Of a DNA stretch of 64,000 nucleotides, positions 2,068 through 27,730 are shown piece after piece. Under the pieces are notes generated by a model. The model was not told the origin of the DNA and searched no databases. It saw only the letters and a list, made by a program, of their open reading frames with translations. The stretch comes from Levilinea sp. (GTDB lineage Bacteria; Chloroflexota; Anaerolineae; Anaerolineales; Anaerolineaceae). Numbering within the stretch: position 1 is the stretch's first letter; every line of letters starts with the position of its first letter. The stretch spans positions 186,001-250,000 of the forward strand of contig JARKPO010000005.1 in the NCBI GenBank assembly GCA_029975215.1, written 5' to 3'. Position numbers and translations under genes: made by a program.

Positions 2068-2075
2068 AAATTCAC

Positions 2076-2759: not shown

Positions 2760-2805
2760 TTTCGATTCCTTCCGAATAGGTTTGCTTATCCATTTTACAT
2801 ACAAA

Positions 2806-2833
2806 CAGGGACCGGCGGAACGGCCGATCCCTG
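2806..2833 (-). terminator. Hairpin between PepSY-like gene and regulator
   Basis: An imperfect stem (CAGGGA plus CGGC paired with GCCG and TCCCTG) closes over the loop GGAAC. On the minus strand it is followed by TTTGT, so it probably limits read-through from the Met-rich gene into the two-component operon. Confidence 0.5.
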
Positions 2834-2855
2834 AAGTTGGGCAAGATGGATGTGA

Positions 2856-3683: not shown

Positions 3684-3797
3684 CAGTAATTTCTCCTGTT
3701 CCAATTGATTTCAAACTTTCATCCTCAGTTTACTGGCCGAGGGTAAAGTCACCGTGAAGCATTTCTAAAGCTTTTGTAAAGATATAGCCGGTTTAAA

Positions 3798-8295: not shown

Positions 8296-8868
8296 TTACC
8301 ATATACCCGGAAGAAGACGCCATTGAACTGTCCTGGCATAGCAACTATATCCGGATAACCATCTCTCTTCACGTAGGATCCGTAAACATTGGGCTGAAGC
8401 GAGTGTAATGATCAAAACGATATCCAGCACCAGATTGTTGGAGCTAAAGAGAAGTGCCGTTCGAAATACAAGTTCACCCAGATACATCGGATGCCGAATA
8501 AAACGATAAGGCCCCCGGCTGGTGATCCCGCGATCTGCCGGCGCAATCCCGAATCGCTTTCCTAGAGTTGTTAGGGACCATAAAATCAGACCATAGCCTG
8601 CGAGACCCGGCATGAGCAAATACCAGGGCGAAGGTCCGCTGTGGACAGCGGTCGGCAACAGCGCCGCGATCATCCCCAACCATAAACCAACCCGATCGTA
8701 CTTCTTCGCCGGCTCTCGCCTGGCATAAAACCAGGCCAACAGCAGATTGTGAAATGCGTACAACCAGGCAAGTACTGAGGGGCTTTGCCAGGCTGCAACT
8801 CCAGCGACGATCGCGGCAAAGGCGAAAAACGCAAATCCTAACCGGTCCCGGATCGTATCTTTCAGCAT
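8296..8868 (-). CDS. ICMT/PEMT-like membrane methyltransferase
   Basis: This membrane protein of 190 residues belongs by sequence to the isoprenylcysteine carboxyl methyltransferase / phospholipid methyltransferase-like group. It has about five helices and the C-terminal SAM-binding signature RGPYRFIRHPMYLGEL followed by a loop with two Glu (LREERWL). It starts at 8868, overlapping the TadC stop in an ATGA. A paralogue (60894-61472) sits in the same place next to TadC in the second Tad locus; both share DRLGxAFF and GIAPADRG. This repeated linkage suggests that it acts on a Tad-associated substrate. The real substrate is unknown; a protein, lipid or quinone target are all possible. Confidence 0.82.
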   Translation of the reverse strand: MLKDTIRDRLGFAFFAFAAIVAGVAAWQSPSVLAWLYAFHNLLLAWFYARREPAKKYDRVGLWLGMIAALLPTAVHSGPSPWYLLMPGLAGYGLILWSLTTLGKRFGIAPADRGITSRGPYRFIRHPMYLGELVFRTALLFSSNNLVLDIVLIITLASAQCLRILREERWLSGYSCYARTVQWRLLPGIW

Positions 8869-9728
8869 CACATGCTCCCCAGGCCGGATACAATTGGCCA
8901 CCCGATCACCACCAGAAGCGTTGCCAGAAATGGCAGGAAATAGAAGATCACCATCGGGATCACCAGTTCCGATCCCACTTTCTCGGCTCGCTGTTCCGCC
9001 GCGCCGATGTAGTCCGCGGCGATGCTGGTGGCCAACTGGCCCATCAATTCCTGCTGAGCTGTGCCGCGGCGGATAAACTCCAACTGCACAGCCATGCCGA
9101 TCAGCTCCGGGAGTTGGGTTTCCTGCGCCTCGCGCTGCATCTGCTCGATCAAGTTTCTTCCCTGCGCCATTTGCAGTACCTTGCGCATCCATTTACCGAC
9201 CATGCTTTGCGCCTGGGCAGTTCGGCGGAGCGCTTCTTCCATGGAAACGTTGGCCGACATCTGCGCTGACACGAGCTGCACGTATTCCGGTAGCTGGGCG
9301 ATAAACTGCCGGCGCGTTCGCCGGGCCACGCTTCCCATGCGCATCGCCGGGTACTGAAACCCTACGATGGCCCCGACCAGGGCAAATACCGGTTCGCCGA
9401 CAGCCACCATGCCGAGACCTAAGCCGGCTACCGCCAACGCAAAGCGCAGCGAAGTAAACTGGATTTCGTTCCAGTCTCCCCATTGGTCACTCACTTGCGC
9501 CCAATAGAGATCAGCCCGCGTTTTCCGTAGAAATCCCGCGGGAGTCCAGCGCGAAACCGGTTTATCCAATACAGAAAGAGACCTGCGCCAGCTTGATTGT
9601 GGAGCGGAATAATCGGGAGATAAGGTTTCAGCCAGACGACCGGTGGGGATGCTGGGCGCCCATTCCAGGGTCAGGTAGATCACCAACACAAAGCTAGCGA
9701 TCCCGGTGAGGAGTATCAAGGCTTGCAT
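8868..9728 (-). CDS. tadC: TadC-like inner-membrane platform protein
   Basis: This 286-residue protein shows the type II secretion F (T2SF) fold: a long N-terminal part with one or two helices, the cytoplasmic helical domain around VQLVSAQMSANVSMEEALRR, and two C-terminal helices (VIPMVIFYFLPFLATLLVV). In Tad systems TadB and TadC form the membrane platform that the CpaF ATPase drives. It follows tadB with no gap and precedes the methyltransferase. A homologue with the same motifs lies at 61629-62486. Confidence 0.9.
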   Translation of the reverse strand: MQALILLTGIASFVLVIYLTLEWAPSIPTGRLAETLSPDYSAPQSSWRRSLSVLDKPVSRWTPAGFLRKTRADLYWAQVSDQWGDWNEIQFTSLRFALAVAGLGLGMVAVGEPVFALVGAIVGFQYPAMRMGSVARRTRRQFIAQLPEYVQLVSAQMSANVSMEEALRRTAQAQSMVGKWMRKVLQMAQGRNLIEQMQREAQETQLPELIGMAVQLEFIRRGTAQQELMGQLATSIAADYIGAAEQRAEKVGSELVIPMVIFYFLPFLATLLVVIGWPIVSGLGSM

Positions 9729-10610
9729 TTAGACTGCCTCCATGATCATCGAGCGAATGATAAGGTAACCGGCTACCATAGCACCCATGGCCAGGCCAAT
9801 CACGATCTGCACCGGGAGTTGGGTGAGTGATTCGCGCACCATTGGGTCGGAACTGAGGTAGGCCAGGATCAACCCCAGCACAGCCGGCAAAACCTTAGCC
9901 GAGACCAGCGAATCCCCTGCCTTGGCCTGTGCCCGGTTGCGGGCCATCAGAATTTGCTGGACGCGGGTAGAGATATCCATCAGAACCTGGGTATAAGAGC
10001 GCCCGCCGGCTTCGGTAAAACCTTCCAGCAATTGCGCGAGATTGGCCAATGAAACGGAAGGCGATCGGGCGGCCAGGCTGTGCAGGGCATCCATGCGGTC
10101 CTTCACCCGCATCTCGGTGGCGGTCAGGATTAGTTCGGGAGTCAGTGGATTGTTCTTCTCCAGCGCCAACGACTCTCCCACCTGCTGCAGTACATCTGGA
10201 ACCGAGCCGCCAGCCAGCAGCCCCGCCGAAATGCGCCCAATGGCAATCGGCAGCTGCTGGTCGATCATCCGTCCCCGGCTTTTGACCTTGTCATCCAGCC
10301 AGGCATTGGGAACGTAGAAGGCAATCCCGCCAACAACCAACGCCGGCAGCCCAGGTAAAAACACCCACATGACAGCCATCCCGGCCAGACCTGCCGCGCC
10401 GCACAGCAGCCGAAAGGTAACCGGACGCAGCTTCAGGCCGGCGGCCAGTAGCTTATAGTCCAGGGATTTCGGATCCAGCCCGGCCAGTGTGCGCACCGAA
10501 TCGGCGGAGTAGAGATCGGATAACTTCCCAGTCTTGACCTGGTTGGGATACAACCAGAACAGAATCAGCGTGGTGCACAATAATCCAATCACGGGAATCA
10601 AGAATATCAT
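9729..10610 (-). CDS. tadB: TadB-like inner-membrane platform protein
   Basis: This 293-residue T2SF-family protein has an N-terminal helix, two central helices (about 85-125), the cytoplasmic bundle with GRISAGLLAGGSVPDVLQQVGES and LAQLLEGFTEAGGRSY, and a C-terminal pair of helices. It is the usual partner of TadC. It lies between cpaF and tadC with gaps of 12 bp and 0 bp, so it is in the same transcript. Its second-locus counterpart (62483-63367) is clearly homologous. Confidence 0.9.
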   Translation of the reverse strand: MIFLIPVIGLLCTTLILFWLYPNQVKTGKLSDLYSADSVRTLAGLDPKSLDYKLLAAGLKLRPVTFRLLCGAAGLAGMAVMWVFLPGLPALVVGGIAFYVPNAWLDDKVKSRGRMIDQQLPIAIGRISAGLLAGGSVPDVLQQVGESLALEKNNPLTPELILTATEMRVKDRMDALHSLAARSPSVSLANLAQLLEGFTEAGGRSYTQVLMDISTRVQQILMARNRAQAKAGDSLVSAKVLPAVLGLILAYLSSDPMVRESLTQLPVQIVIGLAMGAMVAGYLIIRSMIMEAV

Positions 10611-10622
10611 CTGCTTATCTCC

Positions 10623-11924
10623 TCAATCTTGGCTGTTGCGGGAGTGCAGCTCCCCCAGCTTTTCCCAGGCCGGATTACCTACCGGTGATTGCTCGTTGTA
10701 GCGAAAAATGGGCTCGAACCATACATCCCCGCTTTTGAGTTCCTTGGAAATGTTGGCGACCTGCACCACCCGGCGGATTTCGTGGCGGATGCCAATCTGG
10801 ACCAATAGATCGACCGCATCGGCGATCATCTGGTTGGCTTCGTGGGCCCGCACGCCGGCATCCGCACCCATCACGGTGGCCAGACGCCGTGCCGCCTCAC
10901 GCGGGGTGTCAGCATGGAAGGTGCAGGCTCCGCTGTGGCCGGTCATCAGCGCGCGAAACAGGCTCATTGCCGCTGCCCCATCGCGCACCTCGCCGATGAT
11001 CAGGTAATCCGGCGACATACGCATGGCATCATCCACGCCATCGGCCAGCTTATAGGGCCGTACCTCCGTCCCGATCGCCTGTGGACGCGCTTCAACCGTT
11101 TGCACAGTTTGCCGGTCGATCCAAATCTCCTCCGGATCTTCGATCTTGACGATGCGCCAGCCGCCCGGCAGGAAGTTGCACAATGCGCTAAGCAGGGTGG
11201 TCTTCCCGGTGCGCGTACCACCGGAAATCAGGATGCGCTGGCCGTCTTCCATCGCCTGGCGCAGCAGGTCCATCATCTCCGCGCTCATCACCCCGCGCTC
11301 CAGCAGCCATTCTGGCCGGACCGGTTTCTGCTCGTACAAACGAATGTTGATGCAAGGATTCCGACCGGGCGGGACCACCACCGGATGCAAGGCTTTGATG
11401 CGCCCACCGCCAGGGTTGTGTTGGGTGGCGGGCAGCTTGGCGTTGATCGACGGGTTGGTTTCATTGAGGGTCTTATTCTGCGGTCCTAGCAGGCGGTCCA
11501 ATACGCGCCAGATTTCGCCGGCTTCCGGGTGCAGATCCACCGTCTCCCAGCGCACGGAACCTTTCTTCATCACCTGGATCAGGCCGGACGAATAGATGCC
11601 GATCTCGGAAAGATCCGTCCGCGCTGGCGGCAGCAGCAAGTCGAGGAAACCCAGGCCAACAATCCGCCGGGTCAGGTCCTCCGCAATCTGTGCTTCAACC
11701 TGTAAACCGGGGCGCAGGTTACGCTTGCGGAAAGCGGCTGAGACGAGCGCTTCCACGCGCTCGCGAATCTGCTTGCGTTCCGTTTCGCCCGGGCTTTGCA
11801 GCACCGTAGGAGCAAACTCCTGGTTGATCTGGTCAATCACTTCATTCACCAGCGCGTTGCGCTCGGCCGGGCTGAGTTGCACTGCTTCAGAAGGGGTATC
11901 ATACAAACCTAAGATGCCTGGCAT
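10623..11924 (-). CDS. cpaF: CpaF/TadA secretion ATPase
   Basis: This 433-residue ATPase of the VirB11/GspE superfamily has an N-terminal domain, then Walker A GGTRTGKT (235-242), Asp box IEDPEEI, Walker B YLIIGEVRDG and His box GHSGACTFHAD. In Tad machines it powers pilus assembly; its closest relatives outside Tad are the VirB11 ATPases of type IV secretion systems. That is relevant here, because the operon also encodes a VirB4-like ATPase. The partial CpaF at the right edge of the window is very similar in sequence. Confidence 0.94.
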   Translation of the reverse strand: MPGILGLYDTPSEAVQLSPAERNALVNEVIDQINQEFAPTVLQSPGETERKQIRERVEALVSAAFRKRNLRPGLQVEAQIAEDLTRRIVGLGFLDLLLPPARTDLSEIGIYSSGLIQVMKKGSVRWETVDLHPEAGEIWRVLDRLLGPQNKTLNETNPSINAKLPATQHNPGGGRIKALHPVVVPPGRNPCINIRLYEQKPVRPEWLLERGVMSAEMMDLLRQAMEDGQRILISGGTRTGKTTLLSALCNFLPGGWRIVKIEDPEEIWIDRQTVQTVEARPQAIGTEVRPYKLADGVDDAMRMSPDYLIIGEVRDGAAAMSLFRALMTGHSGACTFHADTPREAARRLATVMGADAGVRAHEANQMIADAVDLLVQIGIRHEIRRVVQVANISKELKSGDVWFEPIFRYNEQSPVGNPAWEKLGELHSRNSQD

Positions 11925-11936
11925 GGATGTTTCCTT

Positions 11937-13250
11937 TTATGTAAAGCGGATCTTTGGCAAGCGTAAAACGCCGCGCTGGCCTGAGTTGTTACTTTCCAAC
12001 GAGCCGACGTTGGGAAAAAGCACGCCAATCAGCGAGCGGATCCCGCGCGCAAAACCATCCACGCGCGTCACCGGCGGAATGCCTTGGTCCTGCGCCTGTG
12101 TGACAGCCAGGTCGTAGGGAATGACGGCCGCGATCGGCGGGGCCCAGCCGACCGTACCAGCCAACTCATCCTGAAAACTGCGCGCGGTGAAACCGCTGCG
12201 ATCGGTGAACTGGTTGAGCACCAGGTAGATCGACTCACGCGCCAGGCGCTTTTCGCTCTTGAGCCCGGAGAGCAGCAGGTTCAGCGTGTGGCGGGTTGCG
12301 GCCAGGTCGGCCAGCGTTGGCCGCGCCACAATCAGGGCGTAATTGGCAAAGATAATCGAGTGCGCCATCCACAAATCTTCATTGGAGGGAACGTCCATCA
12401 CGATCGCCGCATAGCGTCCATCTTCTGAATCAATCAGCATCCCGTTGATGCTGCCTTCTCCCGTTCCGCGGTTGGAGCTTTCCAGGATTTTCATATACTC
12501 GACCGATGCTTCCGGCGCAACCAGCACCTCCAGGTTTTCTCGGCGCTGCAATGCAGCCTGGAAGGACGCCTTGCCGGGGCGGTCGAAGTACTCAGTCAGG
12601 TTGGGCAGGTAGCGCAAGCGCAGGTGGGGTGGAGCGCTAGGCGGCAGCCCCATCGATACCAACAGGGTCTTGATGCTCAATCGTGCCGCCAGCTCATACG
12701 CCAGGTTTTCCGCCACGGTTGAGCAGCCTGTCCCGCCGGCATGAGATATGACCGCGATGCGCTTGGTGCCGGTGATGAAGGCAGCGGATCCACCGACGAC
12801 GGGACCGGCGACGCTTTGCTGCATGGGCGCTGTTTGAGACATATTGGCTCGCGCCGTCATGGCCGCGCCATACCCGGCCTGGGCAATCTCGGTCCAGTTG
12901 ACCGGCGCGATAAACACCCCGCGCACCATGTTCAGGCCTTCGTACGCGCCGCGCAGATCCTTCTGCCCCAGTGGCAGCACCACGACTGCTACACCGTTCC
13001 AGGCTGATAGGCGCTGCAGGAGGCGCTTCATCGCCTCCGGGTCCGGGGCAATGTCGGTCTGGACAATCAGCAGTTCCGGGTGCAGGTCGTTGACGTTGTT
13101 TTCCAGCACCAGCCACTGGGTGGCATGCCCGGCGACGATAAAGCGGGCGTCCGAAAGCAGCGGCGGTTGCATCTGGTAATAAACCAGCTCGTGGCCGGCT
13201 CCCGCCAGGAGGACGGAAACCTTGTTGGTCTGATAGGAGGTTTCAGACAT
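11937..13250 (-). CDS. CpaE/TadZ-like P-loop protein with degenerate Walker A
   Basis: This 437-residue protein has an N-terminal receiver-like domain (about 10-120) without obvious phosphorylation residues and a C-terminal MinD/ParA-type domain. The P-loop reads SHAGGTGCSTVAENLA, so the signature KGGxGKT has lost both Lys residues (HAGG and GCS). Atypical receivers and weak P-loops are common in TadZ/CpaE, which place the pilus apparatus at a cell pole. It is probably a positioning or scaffold factor rather than an active ATPase. It is flanked by cpaB and cpaF with gaps of 3 and 12 bp. Confidence 0.85.
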   Translation of the reverse strand: MSETSYQTNKVSVLLAGAGHELVYYQMQPPLLSDARFIVAGHATQWLVLENNVNDLHPELLIVQTDIAPDPEAMKRLLQRLSAWNGVAVVVLPLGQKDLRGAYEGLNMVRGVFIAPVNWTEIAQAGYGAAMTARANMSQTAPMQQSVAGPVVGGSAAFITGTKRIAVISHAGGTGCSTVAENLAYELAARLSIKTLLVSMGLPPSAPPHLRLRYLPNLTEYFDRPGKASFQAALQRRENLEVLVAPEASVEYMKILESSNRGTGEGSINGMLIDSEDGRYAAIVMDVPSNEDLWMAHSIIFANYALIVARPTLADLAATRHTLNLLLSGLKSEKRLARESIYLVLNQFTDRSGFTARSFQDELAGTVGWAPPIAAVIPYDLAVTQAQDQGIPPVTRVDGFARGIRSLIGVLFPNVGSLESNNSGQRGVLRLPKIRFT

Positions 13251-13253
13251 CGC

Positions 13254-14168
13254 TTAATCCTTCTTGCGGTGGTCGTTCATTTCCTCATACAGCTCGCCCA
13301 GGTTGAGGGTGACCACGTCTGAAACGTCCAGGTTTACCCCGCTGACCGGTTCGAGGGCCAGATGGATGATGCCGTACTGATCGAGCGCCGCCAGCAGGGT
13401 CGGAGGATCCACTTTGAATCCCGGGGTCACCTCCACGGCGGTGGTCGGCACCTGCACCACGATTACGCTGCCGTCCTGCGAAGCCGCACTCGTGCGGGCG
13501 GAGGCAAATAACTGCTCCTCGCTTGCACCCGCCGGGACCTCTTCATAGCGGAAGGGCTGGGGAACCATAAGCACCTTGAGGCCGGTGATTGCCAGACGCG
13601 CCAGCGGAGCGGAAGGCGGCGCAGGCGTAGGTGTCGGGGTAGGCGTGGCGGTGGACAGGAGCGGCGCAGAGGGGGTGAGGGAAGGGGAGGAAAACTCCGG
13701 AATCGCGGCCGGCAGCACGGTGGTTGGATTTTCATTGATTAAGTCGGGCGAGATCATCCCGATAACGGTCACCGTTTGCCCGGCGCGCAGCAGCCCCGCT
13801 ACACCGCTGGCTAGATCCACGTGAATGGCCATGGCAATATGCCCTTCGGGCAGTTCTGCCGGCAGACCGGCGCCGGCGATCTCGCCCAGAACCGATTGCA
13901 CGATCATGTCGCCCGGCGCACGGCCAACCGCAACCATCTTCCCGGCTGCATCTTCAACTTTGGTCAATGCATCTGCCGGTTTCGCGCCGGCCGGAATCGT
14001 GTGCAGTTCGACCAACTCCGCGGTAAGCAGCGTGCCTGGAGAGATTGGGACACGGGCGACGACCACCTGGGTCGGGCGCACGACGCCGTTCAACAGGGCG
14101 ATGACCAGCAGCCCGATGATGACGGCCAGGACGATGGCGGTAAAGGGGGAACGTTTCTTGGTTTGCAT
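13254..14168 (-). CDS. CpaB/RcpC-like pilus assembly protein (SAF domain)
   Basis: This 304-residue protein has an N-terminal transmembrane helix (about 10-28), a SAF domain (VVVARVPISPGTLLTAELVE, GRAPGDMI) and an RcpC/CpaB domain with a Pro/Thr-rich low-complexity insert made of repeated TP pairs near residue 170. In Tad systems this protein acts outside the inner membrane, near the secretin in two-membrane bacteria. No secretin gene is present in the window, which fits a cell envelope without a classical outer membrane. Confidence 0.88.
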   Translation of the reverse strand: MQTKKRSPFTAIVLAVIIGLLVIALLNGVVRPTQVVVARVPISPGTLLTAELVELHTIPAGAKPADALTKVEDAAGKMVAVGRAPGDMIVQSVLGEIAGAGLPAELPEGHIAMAIHVDLASGVAGLLRAGQTVTVIGMISPDLINENPTTVLPAAIPEFSSPSLTPSAPLLSTATPTPTPTPAPPSAPLARLAITGLKVLMVPQPFRYEEVPAGASEEQLFASARTSAASQDGSVIVVQVPTTAVEVTPGFKVDPPTLLAALDQYGIIHLALEPVSGVNLDVSDVVTLNLGELYEEMNDHRKKD

Positions 14169-14194
14169 GTTTTTCCTTGTCTGAAATTTGGTTT

Positions 14195-17100
14195 CTACGA
14201 ACGGAGGATTTCTTCGACAGTAGGGCGCAGGGATACTCGCCCCAGTTCTTGAATGATTTCCTGCTCGGACGGTTCATCGCATTCGACCATCATCGGGCGG
14301 ATCAGCACCGGTTCCAGTTCATGTACATCCGCGCTGTAACCCAGCTTGGCGATCGCGTAGGTTCTCGGGATGCGCGCCAGGTAGCGTTTGTATTCGGTGT
14401 TGACCAACCCTTTTTCCGAACGGCCCAGATGGGGGAGGATCATGTCGCGATCTTTGGCATCTTTGGTCTGGAAGACGAACAGGTTGGCGCAGGAAGAGAG
14501 AATTCCGGACGGCAGTTCGCTGACGGTCTGGGCCATCAGGTGCAGGTACACGCCGTACTTGCGCCCATCCCGCCACATGGTTTGGAAGATGTGGCTGACC
14601 GGGTTTCCACCCTCGCCGGCATTCTGATCGGATGCTGCGCCGCCCGATACACCGGTCAGAACCTTGTTGGCTTCTTCAAAGAAGATCTGCATTTTTGGAA
14701 AAGCGCGGTAGCCATCCAGCGCTTCCCGACGGCGGGCAACGGCATCGAAATAGAGGATGCTGGATAAGAGCGAGAGCAAGGCCGCTTTCGGATACTCGTC
14801 CATCTCCGCACCCCCTTCGATCACGGTGATTCCCCAGCGGTCCTCCGGATTTCCGAGCAGCCCCAGGTCTTCGACCGGCTCGGCGCTGCGACCCGGCCCG
14901 TACTGACGCGCCATGGTTTCTTCAGCAAACTGCTCCAAACGCAGCAGCACCCCTTCCAGGCTGGTGCGGCTGGCCTGGTCGCGCTCGAACTCTTTCTGAT
15001 AAGAGCGTAGGCGTTCCACCCAGTTCACCACGCTGAGGGTAGCGCTGCGATAAACAGCTAGCGCCTGCAAATCCTGCGGATCAAGCCGCTCCAAGGCGGT
15101 TCCAACCGCTACATCATCCATTGGAAGGGAACGAACGCTGCGCACCTGGCGGACTACGTTGACTTCGGCAAAGTTCAGCAAGCTGCCCATCTCCCCGCGC
15201 TGCACCTTGGGATCGCTGGTCAACACCCCAGCCTGGGTATAAATCTCGGTCAGCGCGCGGCGCATAAAGCCCAGCTGGCGTGGGCCCATTCGTCCGGCGT
15301 TGGCGAACAACTCCGCGATCATGCTGCGGTAACGAGCTGGATCGATGCGCTGCGGCACCTGCAGGATGTTCCAGCGCAGGGGCCGCGGCGAGGCGGGATA
15401 CAACTGGCGAATGTCGATGTGTTCTTCATTGCGACCTGGTTCGCGGTAGATCAGGCCAGGCCAGCGCAGTGCTTTGCGCCAGCCCTGCCCGAAGTCCAGG
15501 ACGATTGTGCGGTAGCGCCAAAAACGCGTGGTCTCGTAGGCCAGGCGTTCGGCGGCGATGGATTTACCAAAGCCGGTGTCGCCAACAAAAGCGGTATGGA
15601 AGTGCCGCTGCGGATCGAGGCGTAAAAACACATCGGTGAGCTGCCCGGTTTCGGTTGACCACTGGCGGCCCAGGGTCAGGTCGCCGGCCATCTCGGGATA
15701 AAAAGCAAAGGCGGGGGTTTCTTCCTGAATGGTCAGGGCTGACCCTTGCTCAAAGGTGCCGGGGGCGGTATAGGCTGCCAGCTGAAGCATGGTCAGCAGC
15801 GTCGAATCGGCGTAACCACTCATCGCTTCCGGGATTGTTTCGACCCGTGTGGAAGGGGTAAAAGCGTGCGCATGCAGGCTGATATATGCCTGCTCTTCCT
15901 CGTTCAGGCTGCGTGTCTGTACTCCGGCCACTACATCTTCCGTGCCATGGAAGGCTTCGGGGATCAGTCCCATTAATGCCTGCGCGCCTTGTTCACTGCG
16001 CGCCAGCCCATAAACATCGGTATAGAATGCCCCTTCCCGGCTGGCAATATCCAGCAGCTTGCGCTGGGTGCGCATGATCTCGGTGAGCAGGATATTGGGA
16101 TCATCCTGCCATTGGTAACTGTTGGACAGCGAGAAAGATGGCGCAACGCCAACGCTCATTCCTGAGCTGAACCCCCGACCGATCACCTGTCCGATGCCGG
16201 AGCCTTTGGTATCTGAAGTGGCCGTGCTGTGCGAATCGGCATGACTTTTGGTGATTGAGGAGCTGGCTGTATCGGCGACTGAATCCGTTTCTGATCCTGA
16301 GGTGGTCCAGGCCTCTGATTGGGTCGTTGAATGACTCTGAGAGTTGGTGCTGGACTGGCTTTGGGTGGTGCTATCTGAAACTGTATCGGCTTGGCTCGAT
16401 GTGACCGAGTGCATGGAGCTGTCCGCCGACCCGCTGCTATTGGTCACCCCATCTGAGGATCCCCAGCTGGCGTTTCCGCCCACGTTGGCTGAGAGTCCCA
16501 CTCCGGCCGGGGCGATGCTCCCGCCCACCCCGCCGTTTACCCCATAACCGGAACTGTCCGAATGGGAAACCGCGGTGGAGGAGGATTCTGTGTGTGAGGA
16601 GCCGTCGGTGACCGCTGTGCCTTCGGTATGGGCGGTGCCATGGCTGACCGCCGTGCCTTGGGTAACCGAGGTCCCGGTGGTGACTGTTTCCGAAACCCCT
16701 ACGGTATGCGCCCAGCCGCGCGAACTGGCATGCCCTACCGTATGTGCCTGACCTTCCGCATTCGCAACCCCGTCCGTGGTCGATTGTCCTTCGGTCAGGC
16801 CGGTGGACTGGTTGGTGTTGTAGGAATGTGATGCATTTTCGGCCAGCCCACCGGTGAGGATTGCCGGCAGGCTGATGCCAAAGGATGCCGCGCGTGCCCC
16901 GGTTTGGCGGGAGGCGTAAACAGAGGTGTCCTCCAACAAACCCGAAAGCATGGTGGTAATGTCGGCCAGGTTGACGTGGCTGGCCATCACCAGCAGTATA
17001 AATTCTTCACCAAGACCGCTCATGCCGCGGAAGAGCAGCTCGTTTTGCTGCATGGAATACTGCTGCGCGCCTGGCTGCCCGGATGTCAGTGGATCGCGCA

Positions 17101-17689
17101 GAGATGCATCCCCGCCACGCGCGTTCTCGCGCGGATCGGGATGGCCGACAGTCACCAATGCAAAGCGCATCTGGGTAAAGGCTTTTGCGACCCACTGCGC
17201 AATTGTGGGGGTGAGGGGCTCCAGGCGGATCTGGCGGTAAGCGCCGACCATCGCGGCTTTGAGCGCCATCAGCATCTGCGCGGACCGGCGGACGGCTTCG
17301 TCTTTGTTGGGACAAAATGCTGATACCCCGTAGCACTGCACGATGCCAATGCGCGGCTGTTCGAAAATGCCGGCAGCCAGGTAGACCAGATCCACATTGG
17401 AACCGTACAAGCCGCGCAGGATTGTGCGCATCTTTTGCAGCAGCCCTGCATCCCGGCGCGCTTCGAGTGAGATGTATTTCAACTGAAGTAAACGCACGAC
17501 CCGGTAGCCCTCATAGACTTGTCCGCCCTCCCGTTCCTGGACGTGGAAACACAGGTACTCCATCTGTTCGCGGTTTGGGGTAAAGGACAGATCAATCTCA
17601 CCCACCCGTAAATCGTCGGGAACGTGCAGGGCAGCCGCTTTTTGCAGCCAGGGGATTTTTTCGGACAGTCGATCAATGATTTTTGCCAA
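14195..17689 (-). CDS. VirB4/HerA-like ATPase with Ser/Thr/His-rich insert
   Basis: This very large protein (1164 residues) has an N-terminal domain (1-280) of mixed alpha/beta type, a low-complexity Ser/Thr/Gly/His-rich stretch (about 286-525), and a C-terminal P-loop ATPase with Walker A GDTGFGKS (703-710), a strand LDFGQGWRKAL, a Walker B-like IFFEEANKVL where Glu replaces the usual Asp, and the motif TVSELPSGILSSCANLFVFQTKD. This order is typical of the VirB4/TraC/HerA (DUF87) group that moves DNA or protein. The start is a TTG at 17689 with GGAGGAAA directly upstream. Most Tad loci have no such gene. Whether it acts as VirB4 or as a coupling protein cannot be told by eye. Confidence 0.8.
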   Translation of the reverse strand: MAKIIDRLSEKIPWLQKAAALHVPDDLRVGEIDLSFTPNREQMEYLCFHVQEREGGQVYEGYRVVRLLQLKYISLEARRDAGLLQKMRTILRGLYGSNVDLVYLAAGIFEQPRIGIVQCYGVSAFCPNKDEAVRRSAQMLMALKAAMVGAYRQIRLEPLTPTIAQWVAKAFTQMRFALVTVGHPDPRENARGGDASLRDPLTSGQPGAQQYSMQQNELLFRGMSGLGEEFILLVMASHVNLADITTMLSGLLEDTSVYASRQTGARAASFGISLPAILTGGLAENASHSYNTNQSTGLTEGQSTTDGVANAEGQAHTVGHASSRGWAHTVGVSETVTTGTSVTQGTAVSHGTAHTEGTAVTDGSSHTESSSTAVSHSDSSGYGVNGGVGGSIAPAGVGLSANVGGNASWGSSDGVTNSSGSADSSMHSVTSSQADTVSDSTTQSQSSTNSQSHSTTQSEAWTTSGSETDSVADTASSSITKSHADSHSTATSDTKGSGIGQVIGRGFSSGMSVGVAPSFSLSNSYQWQDDPNILLTEIMRTQRKLLDIASREGAFYTDVYGLARSEQGAQALMGLIPEAFHGTEDVVAGVQTRSLNEEEQAYISLHAHAFTPSTRVETIPEAMSGYADSTLLTMLQLAAYTAPGTFEQGSALTIQEETPAFAFYPEMAGDLTLGRQWSTETGQLTDVFLRLDPQRHFHTAFVGDTGFGKSIAAERLAYETTRFWRYRTIVLDFGQGWRKALRWPGLIYREPGRNEEHIDIRQLYPASPRPLRWNILQVPQRIDPARYRSMIAELFANAGRMGPRQLGFMRRALTEIYTQAGVLTSDPKVQRGEMGSLLNFAEVNVVRQVRSVRSLPMDDVAVGTALERLDPQDLQALAVYRSATLSVVNWVERLRSYQKEFERDQASRTSLEGVLLRLEQFAEETMARQYGPGRSAEPVEDLGLLGNPEDRWGITVIEGGAEMDEYPKAALLSLLSSILYFDAVARRREALDGYRAFPKMQIFFEEANKVLTGVSGGAASDQNAGEGGNPVSHIFQTMWRDGRKYGVYLHLMAQTVSELPSGILSSCANLFVFQTKDAKDRDMILPHLGRSEKGLVNTEYKRYLARIPRTYAIAKLGYSADVHELEPVLIRPMMVECDEPSEQEIIQELGRVSLRPTVEEILRS
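16115..16834 (-). repeat. Coding tract for the Ser/Thr/His-rich insert
   Basis: About 240 codons of the VirB4-like gene encode short degenerate repeats built on GTAxT, HTxG, SHSxS and SQSxS patterns, with a Gly-rich middle (about residues 380-412). It interrupts an otherwise conserved ATPase. Similar tracts are known in some HerA-like conjugation ATPases of Gram-positive bacteria. Function is not known; it could be a flexible tether, a disordered gate or a protein-binding tract. Confidence 0.7.
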
Positions 17690-17701
17690 ATTTCCTCCGC
17701 A

Positions 17702-17746
17702 TGTCTCGTGAAAGGATCAATGCTCTACTGATCCTTTCACGAGACA
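17702..17746 (-). promoter_or_regulatory. Perfect 18-bp hairpin just before the VirB4-like gene
   Basis: TGTCTCGTGAAAGGATCA (17702-17719) pairs without mismatch to its reverse complement at 17729-17746, over a 9-base loop. In the mRNA it ends only about 6 bases before the GGAGG ribosome site of the VirB4-like gene. It lacks a T run, so it looks more like a translation-control, RNA-processing or protein-binding element than a terminator. Confidence 0.7.
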
Positions 17747-17783
17747 CCTCCTGCTTTCCGCAGAAGATGTCGCGCTTGCAGGT

Positions 17784-18068
17784 TTACTGCGCTGTCTCGT
17801 ACCACCATTCCGCGTCGATCACCTCCTCCTCTTCCTGTTCGCGAACCGAACGCTTCGGGGAACGAGGGGTCGAGTAGGAAATAGGTGAATCTGGGACGGT
17901 CTGCGGCTTTGCAGCCGGTTGCGTCTGCCAGGGGCGCAGACGCAGTAGCAGGCTGACCTGTGCGATCAGCGCCGCGAAAGCAGTGATAACGATGACGCCG
18001 GCCAAAGCGAAGATCATAACGATCACGCCTAGCGCCGGACCACGCAGTATGTCAAGGATCGAATTCAT
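17784..18068 (-). CDS. Small one-helix membrane protein (VirB3-like size)
   Basis: This protein of 94 residues has a hydrophobic stretch (about 11-42, possibly two short helices), then a basic segment, a Pro-rich part and an acidic tail (REQEEEEVIDAEWWYET). The start at 18068 has GGAGG 5 bases upstream and is preferred over an upstream ATG at 18140. It lies directly upstream of the VirB4-like ATPase, the place where VirB3 occurs in type IV secretion operons, but size and position are the only similarity I can claim. Confidence 0.7.
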   Translation of the reverse strand: MNSILDILRGPALGVIVMIFALAGVIVITAFAALIAQVSLLLRLRPWQTQPAAKPQTVPDSPISYSTPRSPKRSVREQEEEEVIDAEWWYETAQ

Positions 18069-18204
18069 ACATTCCTCCGAGGTTGGAATAGAGACCGAGG
18101 TTGACGGCAAAAACGCCCGAGGTGTAAAAACAGTTCTCATCCAGGGGGTGAGAAAAGCAAACGGAGCCTGTTCATAAAATGTGAAAGGGTTCCATTTGCG
18201 TTCC

Positions 18205-18894
18205 TCATCGCCTCATCCGGTAGCGTTGGATTAGTTCGGTCGCATTGGCCAGCGGGTTAACCAACGACCAGGGGTTGAGCAGCGCTTGCTGGAGCAGCAT
18301 GGCAAAATAACCCAAAGGGATCACCAGCCATAACGCCCAAAGAATGATCGTGGTCACGTTACTGCGCGTGCTTGCGATTACCTGGGCGGCGCTTTCGGTG
18401 CTGCCGATCAGCGCCGCCCATTGTTCCGGGGACAGTTGGGCGGTAGAAGCCAGGTACAGCCGGCTGCCCAGCACCGCCAGGGCGTAGATAAGAATCCCAG
18501 ATTTGACATTCCAGAGAGTGGTTGTTTCCTGCTGGCGGACCAGCAGTGCTACCAATAATCCAAAACACCACATTGCCGCGCCGATCCATGGCACCGGTGC
18601 GCCCATTCCCCATTGGCTGGCGATCCAGAAAAACAGAGCGATCCCTGTGATGATCTGAGCCGTATGGGTTTCAACAGGTGTGACCTGTCCCTGCCGTCCA
18701 TTTCTGGTTGGCCGGAAAGCGGCCCTGCTTTGCACATGAGCGTCGATCCAGGCTGCAATTCCAGCAGCGCAGGCAAGGCTGATTAGCGCAGCGCCGGAAT
18801 CGGCCAACCAATAGAGCGTCGCCAGTAAACCGTTCAATAGATAGGTTGGCAGCGCTTCTAAGAATTGGGAGAACAGAACGAAATAGTCGGTCAT
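18205..18894 (-). CDS. Polytopic membrane protein of the hybrid operon
   Basis: This 229-residue protein has about six hydrophobic helices (near 15-35, 38-50, 80-97, 100-118, 130-150, 185-207) and an outward-facing loop with QLSPEQWAALIGS. It is not recognised. A polytopic membrane protein in the same operon as VirB4-like and VirB8-like proteins could play a VirB6-like channel role; that is inference from topology and context. It sits 25 bp after the secreted-protein gene and 136 bp before the small one-helix protein. Confidence 0.7.
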   Translation of the reverse strand: MTDYFVLFSQFLEALPTYLLNGLLATLYWLADSGAALISLACAAGIAAWIDAHVQSRAAFRPTRNGRQGQVTPVETHTAQIITGIALFFWIASQWGMGAPVPWIGAAMWCFGLLVALLVRQQETTTLWNVKSGILIYALAVLGSRLYLASTAQLSPEQWAALIGSTESAAQVIASTRSNVTTIILWALWLVIPLGYFAMLLQQALLNPWSLVNPLANATELIQRYRMRR

Positions 18895-18919
18895 AGGGCG
18901 TCAGGTCAGAAAAACAAGG

Positions 18920-20221
18920 TTAAGGCACCAGAGCAGGCAGCGTAACGTATACCTGCAAATCGCCGTCCGCGCTCAGACTACGCGGCTGGGTGATCGTCAC
19001 CCCACGGAACTGCGCGCCGGTGGTGGTCACGCGGAGTTTCAGGTCGAACTTACCAGGGTCGGCAAAAGGTACTTTCAGGGCATTGGCCGTTGCTGTGCAC
19101 GTGCCGCCGCTGCACCCGCCGGACCAGTTGGTTATTCCTGGCACCAGCACGAAGCTTTCTTTGTGTATGTAAGCGCCGTAATGGGTCTGTCCCAGGTGGC
19201 TGGTGATCCAGGCCTTGCTGGCTCCATCCAATGTGGCGGTGGCTTGTAGGGTCGCCACGGCATCGGGTAAGAGTTCTACGTGGCGCAGGCACTCCTTGAA
19301 GACCTGCCGGGTATCATCAACTCCGTCGTTTACGGCGCTGGCATCGCTGGTTTTACAGTTGGATATCTCGCCGGCATTTGCCGCCCGGCAATAATCCTCT
19401 TCCTCGTAGATTGGTTCGTGCCAGACAAAGATCACCGGAGGGATGGTCACCATCGCCTGCACATCCGCTCCGCGCTTTTCCGGATCTTGCCCGACGACCA
19501 GCGGATTGGCCGGCGCCAGCTTCTGGATGCTCAATGTCGGTTGTTGGATGGTCACTTCTGGCCCAGGACAAACCGGAGGTGGTGGCGGCTGGGTTGGGAT
19601 CACCCCGGAACAGCCACCCGGAATCGAGGCGCAGTTCTGTACGCCGTTGAGGTACATCAGGTAAGCACTGCGCAAAGCCGCATCGTTCCATGACATGGAG
19701 AGCAAGTTGGTGATGAAACCCCAACCAGAAAACCAGGTCCAGGCGCTTTCCTGTCCACTCAATACCGCGTTCCAGAACTGGCTGGGGTCCTGGTACTGTG
19801 GGCGTTCCTGCTGGAGCCGGTTCCAATCCAGGCTGTCGCCAGCCACCAATCCCAGAAAGGTGATCATGCTGCCGTAGCCGTTGCTCATCATGCCGGCGGA
19901 ATTGGCCAAACCGCTTTCTTGTGGGTTCATCGCCATAAAGAAAAGGGTCGAGGCCGATGGGAGGACAACCATGTTCCCGTCCGCCGTCTGGAAACGATGG
20001 TAATTGGCATCCAGCTGAAGCGATTGCCCTAAAGGCAGATCCACATTCATCCACGAAGGTGTTTCGGTGGTGACACCCAGATCGACTACGTCTGAGCGCA
20101 GGTTGCCGTTTTCATCGAATACTTCGCTCCATGGGCTTGGATCCTGTGCGGAGACCAGAGAGAGCGGCATCACGCTCAAGAGGATTGCCAGGATGAGACC
20201 TAATCGGAGGACATTTCTCAT
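18920..20221 (-). CDS. Secreted protein of the hybrid operon, function unknown
   Basis: This 433-residue protein has a clear signal peptide (RNVLRLGLILAILLSVMPLSLVSAQ). The N-terminal half (30-190) is an aromatic, helix-rich region (SLDWNRLQQE, WTWFSGWGF), followed by a Pro-rich hinge (IPTQPPPPPVCPGPE) and a beta-rich C-terminal half with several Cys residues (EEDYCRAANAGEISNCK, CSGGTC) that probably form disulfides. It should act outside the membrane. Its start overlaps the end of the VirB8-like gene by 4 bp, so both are coupled. I recognise no family. Confidence 0.75.
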   Translation of the reverse strand: MRNVLRLGLILAILLSVMPLSLVSAQDPSPWSEVFDENGNLRSDVVDLGVTTETPSWMNVDLPLGQSLQLDANYHRFQTADGNMVVLPSASTLFFMAMNPQESGLANSAGMMSNGYGSMITFLGLVAGDSLDWNRLQQERPQYQDPSQFWNAVLSGQESAWTWFSGWGFITNLLSMSWNDAALRSAYLMYLNGVQNCASIPGGCSGVIPTQPPPPPVCPGPEVTIQQPTLSIQKLAPANPLVVGQDPEKRGADVQAMVTIPPVIFVWHEPIYEEEDYCRAANAGEISNCKTSDASAVNDGVDDTRQVFKECLRHVELLPDAVATLQATATLDGASKAWITSHLGQTHYGAYIHKESFVLVPGITNWSGGCSGGTCTATANALKVPFADPGKFDLKLRVTTTGAQFRGVTITQPRSLSADGDLQVYVTLPALVP

Positions 20222-20760
20222 TGCTGGCCTTCCTTGCCTACCCGTTCTTTCAAAACCTGCACTTCTGGTTCAAGCAGGAAGCGGTCGAACTTCCACCCAT
20301 CCTCCGTTTTGAGGATCAGAACGTAAGCCTCATCTTCTGCCTTGTTGCTGCCCGGCAGTGGCTCGGAGAGTCTGATCGCAACACGCCATACTTGCTCTTT
20401 GGCTGTCGAGGAGACGCACTCAAGCGCGCTGACTTCCGCCTGAACCTCTGCTTTCGCTTCTTGATATTTCTGCCACAGACGGTCTGCTCCCATGCGGAGA
20501 AGTGCGCAGCCACTTTCCGTGCTGGCGGCGCAGAACCGGTTCAACCAGGCGTCCTTTCCCTCGTTCACGCTAATTTGGAAGAAAGCGCGCGTTCCAACCA
20601 CTGCCGCGTTGGTTATCTCGGCTTCTTCTGGTGAGGGAGTGGCAGTTTCCCCTGAGGGTCGGGGAGAGAATTGCTGGATCAGGATGATTCCGGCTCCTGT
20701 CAGGAAGATGATCAGGAGAATGAGAAAGGCGTTGCGTTTAGAAAAGGTGAATTCTTTCAA
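20218..20760 (-). CDS. Membrane-anchored protein, VirB8/TcpC-like layout
   Basis: This protein of 180 residues has a short cytoplasmic N terminus, one transmembrane helix (about 11-29), a Pro/Glu/Thr linker and a globular outer domain of about 120 residues with helix AAVVGTRAFFQISV, a Cys pair, and late strands EQVWRVAIRLSEPL, EAYVLILKTEDGWKFDRFLL. This single-helix plus NTF2-like pattern is shared with VirB8 and TcpC of conjugation systems. The start is a TTG at 20760 with AAGGAG upstream; the frame runs further up but crosses the leader terminator. Homology to VirB8 is a suggestion based on layout only. Confidence 0.6.
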   Translation of the reverse strand: MKEFTFSKRNAFLILLIIFLTGAGIILIQQFSPRPSGETATPSPEEAEITNAAVVGTRAFFQISVNEGKDAWLNRFCAASTESGCALLRMGADRLWQKYQEAKAEVQAEVSALECVSSTAKEQVWRVAIRLSEPLPGSNKAEDEAYVLILKTEDGWKFDRFLLEPEVQVLKERVGKEGQQ

Positions 20761-20782
20761 AGAGACTCCTTGCAAAGGGATT

Positions 20783-20838
20783 AAAAAGAGCGACCACCAG
20801 CAAACATCTTTGGATGAAGAGTTTGCAGGCGGTCGCTC
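20783..20838 (-). terminator. Leader terminator (attenuator) of the hybrid operon
   Basis: A strong stem (GAGCGACC-CC-GCAAAC with 16 of 18 pairs; arms at 20788-20805 and 20821-20838) is followed on the minus strand by TTTTTAA, the form of a Rho-independent terminator. It lies between a candidate promoter (20906-20911) and the ribosome site of the first gene of the operon, so transcription of the operon must pass it. The leader upstream of the stem is about 65 nt and contains a GGTCGCC stretch that could pair with GGCGACC-like parts of the terminator arm. A regulated leader is likely. Confidence 0.7.
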
Positions 20839-20905
20839 CAACGGTAGAAAAAGTTGCGGCCCAGGGACTTCAGGCGACCGGTAATCTTATGACATCATCT
20901 CTGGT

Positions 20906-20911
20906 ATTGTA
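20906..20911 (-). promoter_or_regulatory. Candidate extended -10 promoter for the hybrid operon
   Basis: On the minus strand TACAAT is preceded by TGC, giving an extended -10 element. No good -35 at the right distance is visible. Start of transcription would fall near 20899, about 140 nt before the first start codon, leaving room for the leader terminator at 20783-20838. Confidence 0.5.
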
Positions 20912-21147: not shown

Positions 21148-21369
21148 ATGAACAAACAGCGAACAACAAAATCCGTGCATTCACTGCGGCTGAGCGCTGA
21201 AGGTCTCCGACAACTCAGAGACCTTTCGATGCAAACGCAACGCAGCGAAGCAAATGTCGTCGAAATCGCCATCGACCGAATGTACCGTGAGGAGATCCGT
21301 TTTGGCTGCCTCTCGGTTCATGAAGCTGAAGGTATATACACCATTGAAGAATACAAGGATGAAAAATGA
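21148..21369 (+). CDS. Ribbon-helix-helix-like small regulator
   Basis: This 73-residue protein reads like a ribbon-helix-helix DNA-binding protein: a first strand SVHSLRLSAEGLRQLRDLS, then helix SEANVVEIAIDRMYREE. Proteins of this type are antitoxins or operon repressors. The frame is open further upstream, but the ATG at 21148 has GGGA at a suitable distance and matches family size. Its last codons overlap the start of the next membrane-protein gene by 4 bp, so the two form a pair. Possible roles include antitoxin or transcription factor. Confidence 0.65.
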   Translation: MNKQRTTKSVHSLRLSAEGLRQLRDLSMQTQRSEANVVEIAIDRMYREEIRFGCLSVHEAEGIYTIEEYKDEK

Positions 21370-21824
21370 AACTGATTGGCCTTCTTTTTGGAATGATTAC
21401 CAAGACAATTTCACTGGTCGTAATTTCGACCATTGTACTTGCCAGTCTATATATCGGGTACAAGGGCAATCAGCCCATGTCGGTTCCTCAAGCTCCGAAA
21501 GGAATGTCTTATTTTGAGTTCATCCAGGATCGAGTTGAGGCAGCTAAAGTTGTGAAGCCGGCTCGTTGTGGTTGGGGAATGTTTCTTTCCCTCGCTGCTC
21601 TGGGACCTGTTTATTCGGCGGTCTATACGGAGGTAGCTTTGCACCCGGATGGTTTTTGGGCAAAGGTAACTGCACCGGATCCCGATATCCCGATTGGCGT
21701 GCAAAACGCCTCGTGGCTGGATGTGCCTGGTATCTGGTGGGGCGTGGTTGAACGCCTTAGCTGGACGATGCTTGGAAAATCGAATGCTGGCTGCCATTTT
21801 CGGCCGGTGTCCTCTCAACAATAA
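21366..21824 (+). CDS. Membrane protein paired with an RHH-like regulator
   Basis: This 152-residue protein has an N-terminal transmembrane helix (about 5-30), an outer segment, and a second hydrophobic stretch (GMFLSLAALGPVYSAVY) with the C-terminal third rich in Trp and Pro. No family is recognised. It is translationally coupled to the small RHH-like gene (ATGA overlap), so it may be a membrane toxin or a cargo gene under its control. This is a guess from the arrangement; the size is larger than typical toxin peptides. Confidence 0.6.
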   Translation: MKLIGLLFGMITKTISLVVISTIVLASLYIGYKGNQPMSVPQAPKGMSYFEFIQDRVEAAKVVKPARCGWGMFLSLAALGPVYSAVYTEVALHPDGFWAKVTAPDPDIPIGVQNASWLDVPGIWWGVVERLSWTMLGKSNAGCHFRPVSSQQ

Positions 21825-21925
21825 CCTGTCTGTGTCCAGGCCCTGGTTCACTTGTAGCGGTTGCTGCGCCCAGGATTATCCTTTTGACAGGTATGTTCAG
21901 CTGCTAAAGCAAGACAGGGACGTTA

Positions 21926-21971
21926 TTTACATTCATGCTTATTTTGTTTATAATATAAGCATGAATGTAAA
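21926..21971 (+). promoter_or_regulatory. Promoter-operator of the AbiE system
   Basis: A perfect 17-bp inverted repeat (21926-21942 and 21955-21971, 12-base spacer) contains a full promoter: -35 TTTACA (21926-21931), 17-bp spacer and -10 TATAAT (21949-21954). Transcription would start near 21961, the A of the AbiEi start codon, which itself is inside the right arm. AbiEi proteins repress their own promoter by binding inverted repeats, so this is the expected operator. Confidence 0.85.
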
Positions 21972-22572
21972 AACTGAACAGAAACCGATCGAAAGATTGC
22001 GCATGATCCTACGAGAACAGAACGGTATCCTTTTTACCTCCGATCTGGCGAAACTGGGCATTCCGCGAACTTACCTCTCCATTTTGGAAGCGGCAGGTGA
22101 AATCCAGAAGGTCTCCAGAGGGATTTATTCGGCTGTCAATTCTATGGCCGATGAAATGGCCGGCCTTCAAGTCAGATATAAACGTGCCATTTTCTCCCAT
22201 GAAACTGCTCTCTATTTTTTGGAATTATCCGACCGAACACCCTTGTTTTACTCGGTTACCGTCCCAGCTGGATATAACGCTACTCCTTTAAAGGCAAGTG
22301 GGGCCAAAGTCTATTTTGTGAAACGCGAATTGCATTTATTGGGTGAAAGCATGGCAAAGACGCCGAACGGGAACGAAATCAAAACCTACAATCTCGAACG
22401 AACCATCTGTGATATCCTGCGCAGCCGGAACCAGATGGATATCCAGTTCATAAACGAAGCGCTGAAGCGGTACGTGAGGAAAAAAGAAAGAAACATTGAT
22501 CTGCTCTATTCTTACGCTCAACAATTCCGCATCCAGAAAATCGTCAGGGCAACCATAGAGGTTCTTCTATGA
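21961..22572 (+). CDS. abiEi: AbiEi antitoxin (type IV toxin-antitoxin system)
   Basis: This 203-residue protein has an N-terminal winged-helix domain (ERLRMILREQNGILFTSDLAKLGIPRTYLSILE) and a C-terminal domain containing the AbiEi-type core (SHETALYFLELSDRTP, TVPAGYN, NLERTICDILR). It neutralises the AbiEii nucleotidyltransferase without direct binding and represses the operon. The ATG at 21961 has no ribosome site; the promoter seen above suggests a leaderless transcript. Its stop overlaps the toxin start by 4 bp. The pair acts in plasmid maintenance and phage abortive infection. Confidence 0.92.
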   Translation: MNVKTEQKPIERLRMILREQNGILFTSDLAKLGIPRTYLSILEAAGEIQKVSRGIYSAVNSMADEMAGLQVRYKRAIFSHETALYFLELSDRTPLFYSVTVPAGYNATPLKASGAKVYFVKRELHLLGESMAKTPNGNEIKTYNLERTICDILRSRNQMDIQFINEALKRYVRKKERNIDLLYSYAQQFRIQKIVRATIEVLL

Positions 22573-27658: not shown

Positions 27659-27730
27659 ACGTCTCTTCTCCTTAATCTTGTCATGAAATAATCGAGTAGG
27701 TTGTAATGAAAGTGCTGCTACGATGATCAA

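Follow-up and report, generated by a model that had tools for sequence, protein, structure and literature searches.

The stretch of 64,000 nucleotides analysed here (the window) belongs to the 420-kb contig JARKPO010000005.1 (C69 in our numbering) of a Levilinea genome (G000) and carries an eleven-gene operon (8296-20841; operon 1) in which genes for a Tad-type pilus platform stand together with genes resembling parts of type IV secretion systems (T4SSs). Coordinates are those of the window, whose position 1 is contig base 186,001, unless contig bases are named, and genes lie on the minus strand unless marked (+); E values and bit scores given for a family come from Pfam and NCBIfam scans, and a cut-off is the curated threshold of the family concerned. 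Read from its start, operon 1 encodes V8, SEC, M6, S118, an ATPase, CpaB, CpaE, CpaF, TadB, TadC, and an ICMT/PEMT-like membrane methyltransferase; the genes that a first-pass annotation had named here are confirmed on the minus strand and in their places.

Among the Tad genes, that of the CpaF/TadA secretion ATPase (10623-11924) encodes a product over the T2SSE cut-off (E 1.3e-28) with a TIGR03819 match under that model's own cut-off (E 7.2e-43), and the CpaB/RcpC-like protein (13254-14168) is over the cut-offs of both RcpC (1.2e-7) and SAF (6.4e-6), with TIGR03177 under its cut-off (E 1.3e-15). The CpaE/TadZ-like ATPase (11937-13250) is named from an AAA_31 match under cut-off (E 2.9e-5) and from the conserved gene order. 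The hidden Markov model scores of TadB and TadC are under cut-off, and their naming leans on order and paralogues: the TadC-like platform protein (8868-9728; T2SSF E 0.0047) is identified by position and relatives, and the TadB-like one (9729-10610), which gives no T2SSF match of its own, by its place and by a 56% identical paralogue in a second copy of the operon, itself under the T2SSF cut-off (E 0.00037). The methyltransferase gene (8296-8871; PF04191 E 2.4e-7; start estimated) closes the operon.

The T4SS-like part begins with V8 (20218-20760), one helix followed by a globular domain, whose model (predicted local distance difference test, pLDDT, of 86.6) has a predicted VirB8/DotI/TcpC fold. 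The first 22 matches listed in the structure comparison were all T4SS proteins of the VirB8 family, those of effector T4SSs such as Dot/Icm included, which supports the assignment of the modelled V8 as a VirB8-type protein, a feature of conjugative T4SSs, and bears out the VirB8/TcpC layout described in the first-pass annotation (the structure entry 3ub1 we take to be TcpC). SEC (18920-20221) has a signal-like hydrophobic N terminus by hydropathy; M6 (18205-18894) is a polytopic membrane protein encoded beside the ATPase gene, with a helical predicted model (pLDDT 80.7) and a family present in 18 of 20 contigs; and S118 (17784-18068) is a small one-helix protein with a single hydrophobic segment by hydropathy, its family occurring in 8 of the 20 contigs, that of the window counted. 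The likeness to VirB3 that the first-pass annotation drew from the size of S118 is conjectural. A perfect 18-bp inverted repeat (17702-17719 and 17729-17746) lies just ahead of the ATPase gene, a possible hairpin inside the operon.

The ATPase itself (14195-17689; 1164 residues) is a member of NCBIfam NF033849, a family named 'serine-rich protein' (1349.7 bits against a cut-off of 650), and its middle is indeed rich in serine and threonine (38% over residues 281-510). Its nearest solved chains are those of HerA (best E 5e-10), whose relatives act on DNA. The protein had first been described as VirB4/HerA-like, and only the second half of that name stands: the NCBIfam scan gave no VirB4 model at E up to 1, and a search with TIGR00929 (VirB4) over 61 genomes from the Anaerolineae side left none over cut-off, the operon ATPase being unlisted with 13 candidates scored per genome. 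We therefore reject a VirB4 identity for this NF033849 member. Its family has three copies in G000: in operon 1, in a paralogue past the right end of the window, and on contig C18, where the gene is broken by the contig end.

The association of these genes recurs in Chloroflexota. Some match to the ATPase family was found in 59 of 61 genomes, G000 included, and 18 have one over the family cut-off. A scan of the species-genome collection gave 78 loci, nearly all from Chloroflexota by title; the four others (Clostridiales PH28_bin88, metagenome-assembled genomes of Desulfuromonas and Nanosynbacter, and one other bacterium) may be misbinned or distant. Thirty-five of the 78 are well flanked, with at least 5 kb before the ATPase gene and 8 kb after it, and in 27 of these the core order M6, ATPase, CpaB, CpaE, CpaF, TadB, TadC is exact. 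The order is therefore not a product of chance, and the arrangement first noticed in this window does recur elsewhere in the phylum. M6, CpaB, CpaE, and CpaF occur in all 35 well-flanked loci, SEC in 34, TadB in 32, and V8 and TadC in 29 each, and r436, a gene described below, lies within 10 kb on either strand in 14. The methyltransferase (8296-8871; 60894-61505 in the second operon) follows tadC in 23 of the 35, and its substrate might be a pilin or a lipid. In five relatives (L054, L055, L056, L057, and L059) cpaF and tadB are separated by an additional 1.8 to 4.7 kb, which holds AbiE genes in the second Levilinea genome of our set (G001). In six genomes (G001, at L072 3750-14003, and G005, G007, G008, G012, and G030) the operon is followed by families that make up a second Tad set; to judge by the G001 copy, proteins like CpaE, CpaB, TadE, and TadG are among them, along with a PKD protein and an SLT transglycosylase.

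The operon is part of a chromosomal island, whose edges were placed by comparing the contig with a portion of one from G001. Over 18.2 kb the sequences share 90.5% identity; this similarity stops at contig base 18121, exactly where a tRNA-Ser(CGA) gene has its 3' end, and the match resumes at 286321-287286 and from 289995, leaving an island of 268 kb that starts at the tRNA gene and holds the window (GC content 0.514 and 0.544 inside vs 0.589 and 0.612 outside). The 14-nt 3' end of the tRNA gene has three copies in the same orientation in the contig (contig bases 18108, 218439, and 286196), against about 0.006 expected. These copies split the island, which we take to consist of two elements in tandem: A, of about 200 kb, holds operon 1, and B, of about 68 kb, holds a paralogous operon 2. 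They meet at the middle copy (32439-32452, +). As many as 22 of the 56 open reading frames (ORFs) of B have a counterpart among the 202 of A, in the same order save three. They include the serine recombinase, DUF6094, Rad52, SSB-like, TadG, TadE, peptidase, methyltransferase, TadB, CpaF, CpaE, CpaB, ATPase, M6, SEC, U157, r436, r202, ParA, and DnaA-N proteins, to which profiles add V8, TadC, SSB, and RadC.

The resulting backbone runs from an attachment-site (att) repeat through serine recombinase, DUF6094, RadC, Rad52, SSB-like, and TadG/TadE/Flp/peptidase genes to methyltransferase, TadC, TadB, CpaF, CpaE, CpaB, HerA-like ATPase, M6, SEC, and V8, and then through r436, r202, and SSB to DnaA-N, ParA, and again an att repeat. 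At the left end of B lies a large serine recombinase (32614-34290; Resolvase 6e-31, Recombinase 3.3e-20), likely the integrase, and the recombinase at the left end of A is 22% identical to it. Further backbone genes of B in the window encode a DUF6094 methyltransferase-helicase (39594-43076; counterpart in A 54% identical), RadC-DUF6573 (46220-47422; PF04002 E 2.5e-40; with counterparts), a Rad52-like protein with a SWIM finger (49599-50744; PF04098 E 4.6e-16; counterpart in A), and an SSB-related protein (51319-51789; PF00436 E 0.052, under cut-off; with a counterpart).

Operon 2 extends from 58088 to contig base 259709 (73709 on the window scale), beyond the right end of the window, and includes the pilin genes. 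It encodes TadG-like (58088-58537; PF13400 E 8e-10) and TadE-like (58531-58977; PF07811 E 2.7e-10; start estimated) proteins, a Flp-like mini-pilin of 48 residues (59003-59149) named by size, place, and hydrophobic segment, an A24 prepilin peptidase (59180-59719; PF01478 E 0.0023, under cut-off), and a membrane protein, F403, with a weak T2SSF match (59689-60900; PF00482 E 0.12). The methyltransferase-like gene (60894-61505), TadC, TadB, and part of CpaF fill 60894-64000; the remainder lies past the window, where V8 ends at contig base 259709. The mini-pilin has a 94% identical copy in Bellilinea (G004), and similar reading frames occupy the same slot in element A and in Leptolinea. In element A, TadG, TadE, the Flp-like frame, whose start codon is uncertain, and an A24 peptidase that exceeds the cut-off (E 1.9e-6) lie at contig bases 59790-61354, about 133 kb from operon 1 and separated from it by variable DNA, which is why no pilin or peptidase is visible beside operon 1. 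The first-pass annotation was thus right that both are missing from 8296-20911, although they are present elsewhere in the same element and in the next one (58088-59719). Taken together, the elements hold the parts of a Tad (type IVc) pilus: CpaF/TadA, tandem TadB and TadC, a Flp-type mini-pilin, TadE/TadG, and an A24 peptidase.

Near the right end of element A lies r436 (25379-26689), a candidate relaxase composed of a coiled coil, a winged-helix-like region, and a C-terminal PD-(D/E)XK-like domain. Residues E289, H297, H302, P338, D339, E354, E356, and K369 are invariant in all 15 aligned members from both phyla in which the family was found, in an alignment that leaves out one member from genome G047. 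Its weak matches converge on folds of nucleases: Bax1 and Hjc (E 0.07-0.5) occur amid many coiled-coil matches, and under cut-off the family matches VRR_NUC in 3 of the 15 members and Replic_Relax in 2. MOB_C relaxases are related to PD-(D/E)XK nucleases (PMC12857230; for this and the other papers cited, our statements cover the parts of the text that were available), and r436, if the candidate is right, would likely nick or trim DNA in the manner of such a relaxase. Towards the junction follow r202, a one-helix protein (26671-27279; family alignment of 9; start uncertain), an SSB-like protein (27203-27730; PF00436 E 6.3e-8), a protein with a DnaA-N domain (27731-29863; PF11638 E 7.6e-8) that is a possible replication initiator, a protein paired with ParA and called "parB" by position only (30140-30859), and a ParA partition ATPase (30870-31640; AAA_31 E 1e-35).

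Copies in other genomes bear on the movement of the elements. Wider flanks were examined in four further contigs, from Bellilinea, Leptolinea tardivitalis (G012), Longilinea (G030), and G047. In Bellilinea the backbone lies between an identical 14-mer and tRNA-Ser(CGA), 81 kb in all, and in L. tardivitalis it spans 102 kb from tRNA-Met to a 22-nt repeat of the end of that tRNA, in an island with a tyrosine-integrase-like ORF and no detected serine recombinase. Direct repeats at a tRNA gene together with an integrase were thus found in three genomes. Operon 2 and its Bellilinea counterpart are 90.7% identical over 15.8 kb of DNA, against 76.3% for rpoB and 75.7% for recA, and the copies in G001 and G008 are 94.3% identical over 8.7 kb, against 73.6% for rpoB. 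Because the operon DNA is far more alike across genera than these genes, the sequences indicate that the elements moved between lineages. For 13 of the 15 genes compared between G000 and Bellilinea, the ratio of nonsynonymous to synonymous substitution rates (dN/dS) is 0.02-0.19, low values which indicate that the genes are kept under selection.

Relatives also exist on plasmids of another phylum. A tblastn search of 72,556 plasmid records with the window ATPase gave two matches, both on circular megaplasmids: pRUMAL01 of Ruminococcus albus 7 (420,706 bp) and pB6464 of Alkaliphilus (435,827 bp). The Alkaliphilus ATPase aligns over 1061 columns (E 1.6e-68). On both plasmids the core order remains recognisable. 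Around the ATPase gene they have SSB, a hypothetical protein that contains a single hydrophobic segment, r436, and small hypothetical proteins; the slots of CpaB and CpaE are occupied by a hypothetical protein and an AAA ATPase, respectively, followed by CpaF, a pair of T2SSF proteins, and an A24 peptidase. Only pB6464 has an annotated Flp pilin and TadE. Profile comparison with hhalign relates r436 to the plasmid versions at E 1.7e-10 and 2e-8, and in a Replic_Relax search of the whole plasmids r436 was the single match on each (E 2.1e-4 and 0.0076, under cut-off). The Thermoflexus locus (L152) has SSB, r202, r436, M6, ATPase, and Tad genes in a plasmid-like order. The plasmid ATPase has 182 metagenome relatives at E 1e-10, one cluster of which comprises 805 sequences, and the few with a named source include Anaerostipes caccae and Ruminococcus; the Alkaliphilus ATPase had no match in the phage collection. 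Plasmid typing classes pRUMAL01 as mobilizable, with a MOBP relaxase, and pB6464 as 'non-mobilizable'.

Several other features of the island stand beside this backbone. A U157-like small membrane protein is encoded beside operon 1 (21366-21824, +; 34% identical to the copy in B, whose family has 12 members in 12 contigs), and an AbiEi/AbiEii pair (21694-23402, +) adjoins the operon, with relatives in G001, where they separate cpaF from tadB, and in G015, where they follow cpaF. At the left edge of the window (292-3704) a histidine kinase, a response regulator, and Met/Gly-rich proteins are encoded, whose relatives adjoin the operon in G001 and which are possibly shared cargo. The variable part of element A holds a further CpaF/CpaB/CpaE set (contig bases ~152.7-155 kb). 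In element B, near-perfect 36-bp inverted repeats (34660-34695 and 39528-39563), 4.8 kb apart, surround a MalT/LuxR-type regulator and an alcohol dehydrogenase in what looks like an insertion, and an ABC transporter cluster between backbone genes (52440-58098) is likely cargo, the corresponding slot in Bellilinea having other genes.

We consider it probable, as far as sequences and predicted folds can tell, that the island-borne operon 1 encodes a machine for conjugation, made up of a Tad-type pilus platform acting together with a HerA-like ATPase and a protein predicted to be VirB8-like. The first-pass annotation had imagined a single transfer machine moving the replicon next to it, and this idea has gained ground: replicon genes and operon share a single element, which is bounded by repeats, sits at a tRNA gene, and has a conserved backbone, and a related set is found on circular megaplasmids. 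In such a machine the recombinase would excise the element and insert it at the tRNA end, the DnaA-N protein and ParA would maintain the excised circle, r436 would nick or trim the DNA in a MOB_C-like manner, SSB would coat and protect it, and the HerA-like hexamer would pump it, with M6, V8, and SEC allowing its passage through the envelope. CpaF, TadB, and TadC would extend and retract a Flp pilus, made of pilin processed by the A24 peptidase, which might draw cells together or act as a conduit; Rad52 and RadC may have a role in the recipient. More tentatively, and with a chance that we put a little short of even, these elements could represent a widespread class of conjugation systems free of VirB4 and VirD4, in which a HerA-like pump and a VirB8-like protein would send DNA through or along a Tad platform after a start by a PD-(D/E)XK protein, as tRNA-integrated elements in Anaerolineae and, in reduced form, on clostridial megaplasmids.

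A number of results count against conjugation by these elements. The M6 model has no significant match to solved structures, VirB6 included, so that the VirB6-like six-helix protein of the first-pass annotation holds as a polytopic helical membrane protein, and its kinship with VirB6 is conjectural. The Pfam scan covered the ORFs of the window, not the full elements, and found neither a VirD4-like coupling protein nor a classical relaxase there; across the genome only one place (contig C15, 9554-9838), outside these elements, exceeds the cut-off of the PF03432 relaxase model. Concerning r436, it reaches no Pfam cut-off, the window copy was not found when its genome was searched with PF13814 (which we take to be the MOB_C profile), and 10 of 14 control genomes also give sub-threshold PF13814 matches at the same lax limit. 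On the two clostridial plasmids V8 and SEC were not detected, and M6 and r202 are assigned by position alone, so the core common to both phyla is smaller than the operon; on pRUMAL01 it could be the MOBP relaxase that does the work. The integration sites are also less tidy than one would wish. G001 has 2.1 kb without a match in C69 between the tRNA and the 286321 gene, and so offers no clean empty site, past that gene it carries 29 kb peculiar to itself, and its 50 bp after the tRNA are 86% alike to those of G000 (perhaps the tRNA terminator). In Longilinea the backbone is present, but no tRNA was detected within 140 kb, and around the G047 copy tRNAs were detected but no repeat. Finally, F403 (dN/dS 0.38) and the peptidase (0.26) are under looser constraint than the other genes.

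Some of these genes could have come together for other reasons. Tad loci on plasmids elsewhere have been read as adhesins (PMC5696575), and element A does have the additional CpaF/CpaB/CpaE set in its variable part; operon 1 might then be an adhesive Tad pilus carried as mobile-element cargo, with extra proteins that tune the pilus and are unrelated to DNA transfer. We regard this as unlikely, since the operon belongs not to the variable part but to the backbone common to four repeat-bounded elements in three genomes, the HerA-like ATPase and the nuclease-like protein remain linked to the Tad operon across phyla, and the 18-kb stretches around CpaF-type genes on contigs C45 and C50 have no relative of the ATPase, M6, V8, or SEC. 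Related genomes with a pilin and peptidase next to the operon and no mobile element had been named at the outset as grounds for abandoning the transfer machine: pilin and peptidase genes do occur near the operon in such genomes, yet so does the mobile element.

The occurrence of VirB8-like proteins in effector T4SSs such as Dot/Icm, and the apparently secreted SEC, would also suit a protein secretion machine built from Tad and T4SS-like parts, a quite improbable solution given the constant company of SSB, DnaA-N, ParA, Rad52, and the nuclease-like protein, and the action of HerA relatives on DNA. TdtA, discussed below, is one such relative (PMC5365140). A system for DNA uptake or release, and not for cell-to-cell conjugation, would have parallels in the archaeal Ced system, where a VirB4/HerA-like ATPase is joined to a channel of six or seven helices (PMC9905601), and in the gonococcal genetic island (GGI). 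Tad pili, too, have reportedly been tied to DNA uptake in Liberibacter, to go by the title of a paper (PMC8513845). Carriage on integrated elements and megaplasmids that bring recombinase and partition genes of their own points to self-transfer and makes an uptake or release system very improbable here. Conjugation remains the reading that we prefer. If it is correct, a transfer machine using a Tad platform explains how islands of roughly 70 to 200 kb cross genera, a family known only as 'serine-rich protein' acquires a function, and Tad pili are shown to be capable of donor-side DNA transfer. Plasmid spread among the ATPase-bearing metagenome relatives may also escape present typing, as the 'non-mobilizable' pB6464 suggests, though pRUMAL01 is typed MOBP.

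The pairing of Tad and T4SS genes has already been reported on plasmids of Sulfobacillus and Cutibacterium (PMC6803676, PMC5696575). Plasmids pL15 and pY0017 and a chromosomal region of Sulfobacillus thermotolerans have Tad and conjugation genes together; like the elements described here, they encode CpaF-like, TadB/TadC-like, and MinD-like proteins beside conjugation genes in one backbone, but theirs include a relaxase named as such, a coupling protein like TraG, and one like VirB4, where we find a HerA-like ATPase and, in the scanned ORFs of the window, none of those three (PMC6803676). The linear plasmids of Cutibacterium acnes have a tad locus adjoining a TcpC-like gene and ATPases, in their case FtsK-like and VirB4-family proteins, and in the available part of that paper the authors leave a functional link open (PMC5696575). 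Neither plasmid found with the window ATPase is from Cutibacterium; whether the C. acnes plasmids are in the collection was not checked. PAPI-1 of Pseudomonas aeruginosa is likewise an integrated element with few clear T4SS genes, and it depends on a type IV pilus for its transfer; as described, this pilus is not of the Tad kind, and the island has VirB4 and VirD4. It is presented, with mycobacterial plasmids, as a possibly chimeric system (PMC12857230). A term search in the main text of that T4SS review, of 2025, gave no mention of Tad or CpaF, and our literature search found no study of conjugation-type systems in Chloroflexi or Anaerolineae. The integrative element ICETh1 of Thermus thermophilus comes close in another respect, as its hexameric ATPase TdtA, of the HerA superfamily and accompanied by a nuclease gene, is required for DNA donation, but the recipient takes up the DNA by its competence system and the part of the paper available names no Tad or VirB8 gene (PMC5365140). 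The archaeal Ced and Ted systems combine a VirB4/HerA-like ATPase and a polytopic membrane protein with pili, but are domesticated DNA importers for which no Tad genes are named in the text available (PMC9905601). Compared with all of these, what is new here is the HerA-like ATPase with its nuclease-like partner, in a family of tRNA-bounded Chloroflexota elements that reaches to clostridial megaplasmids.

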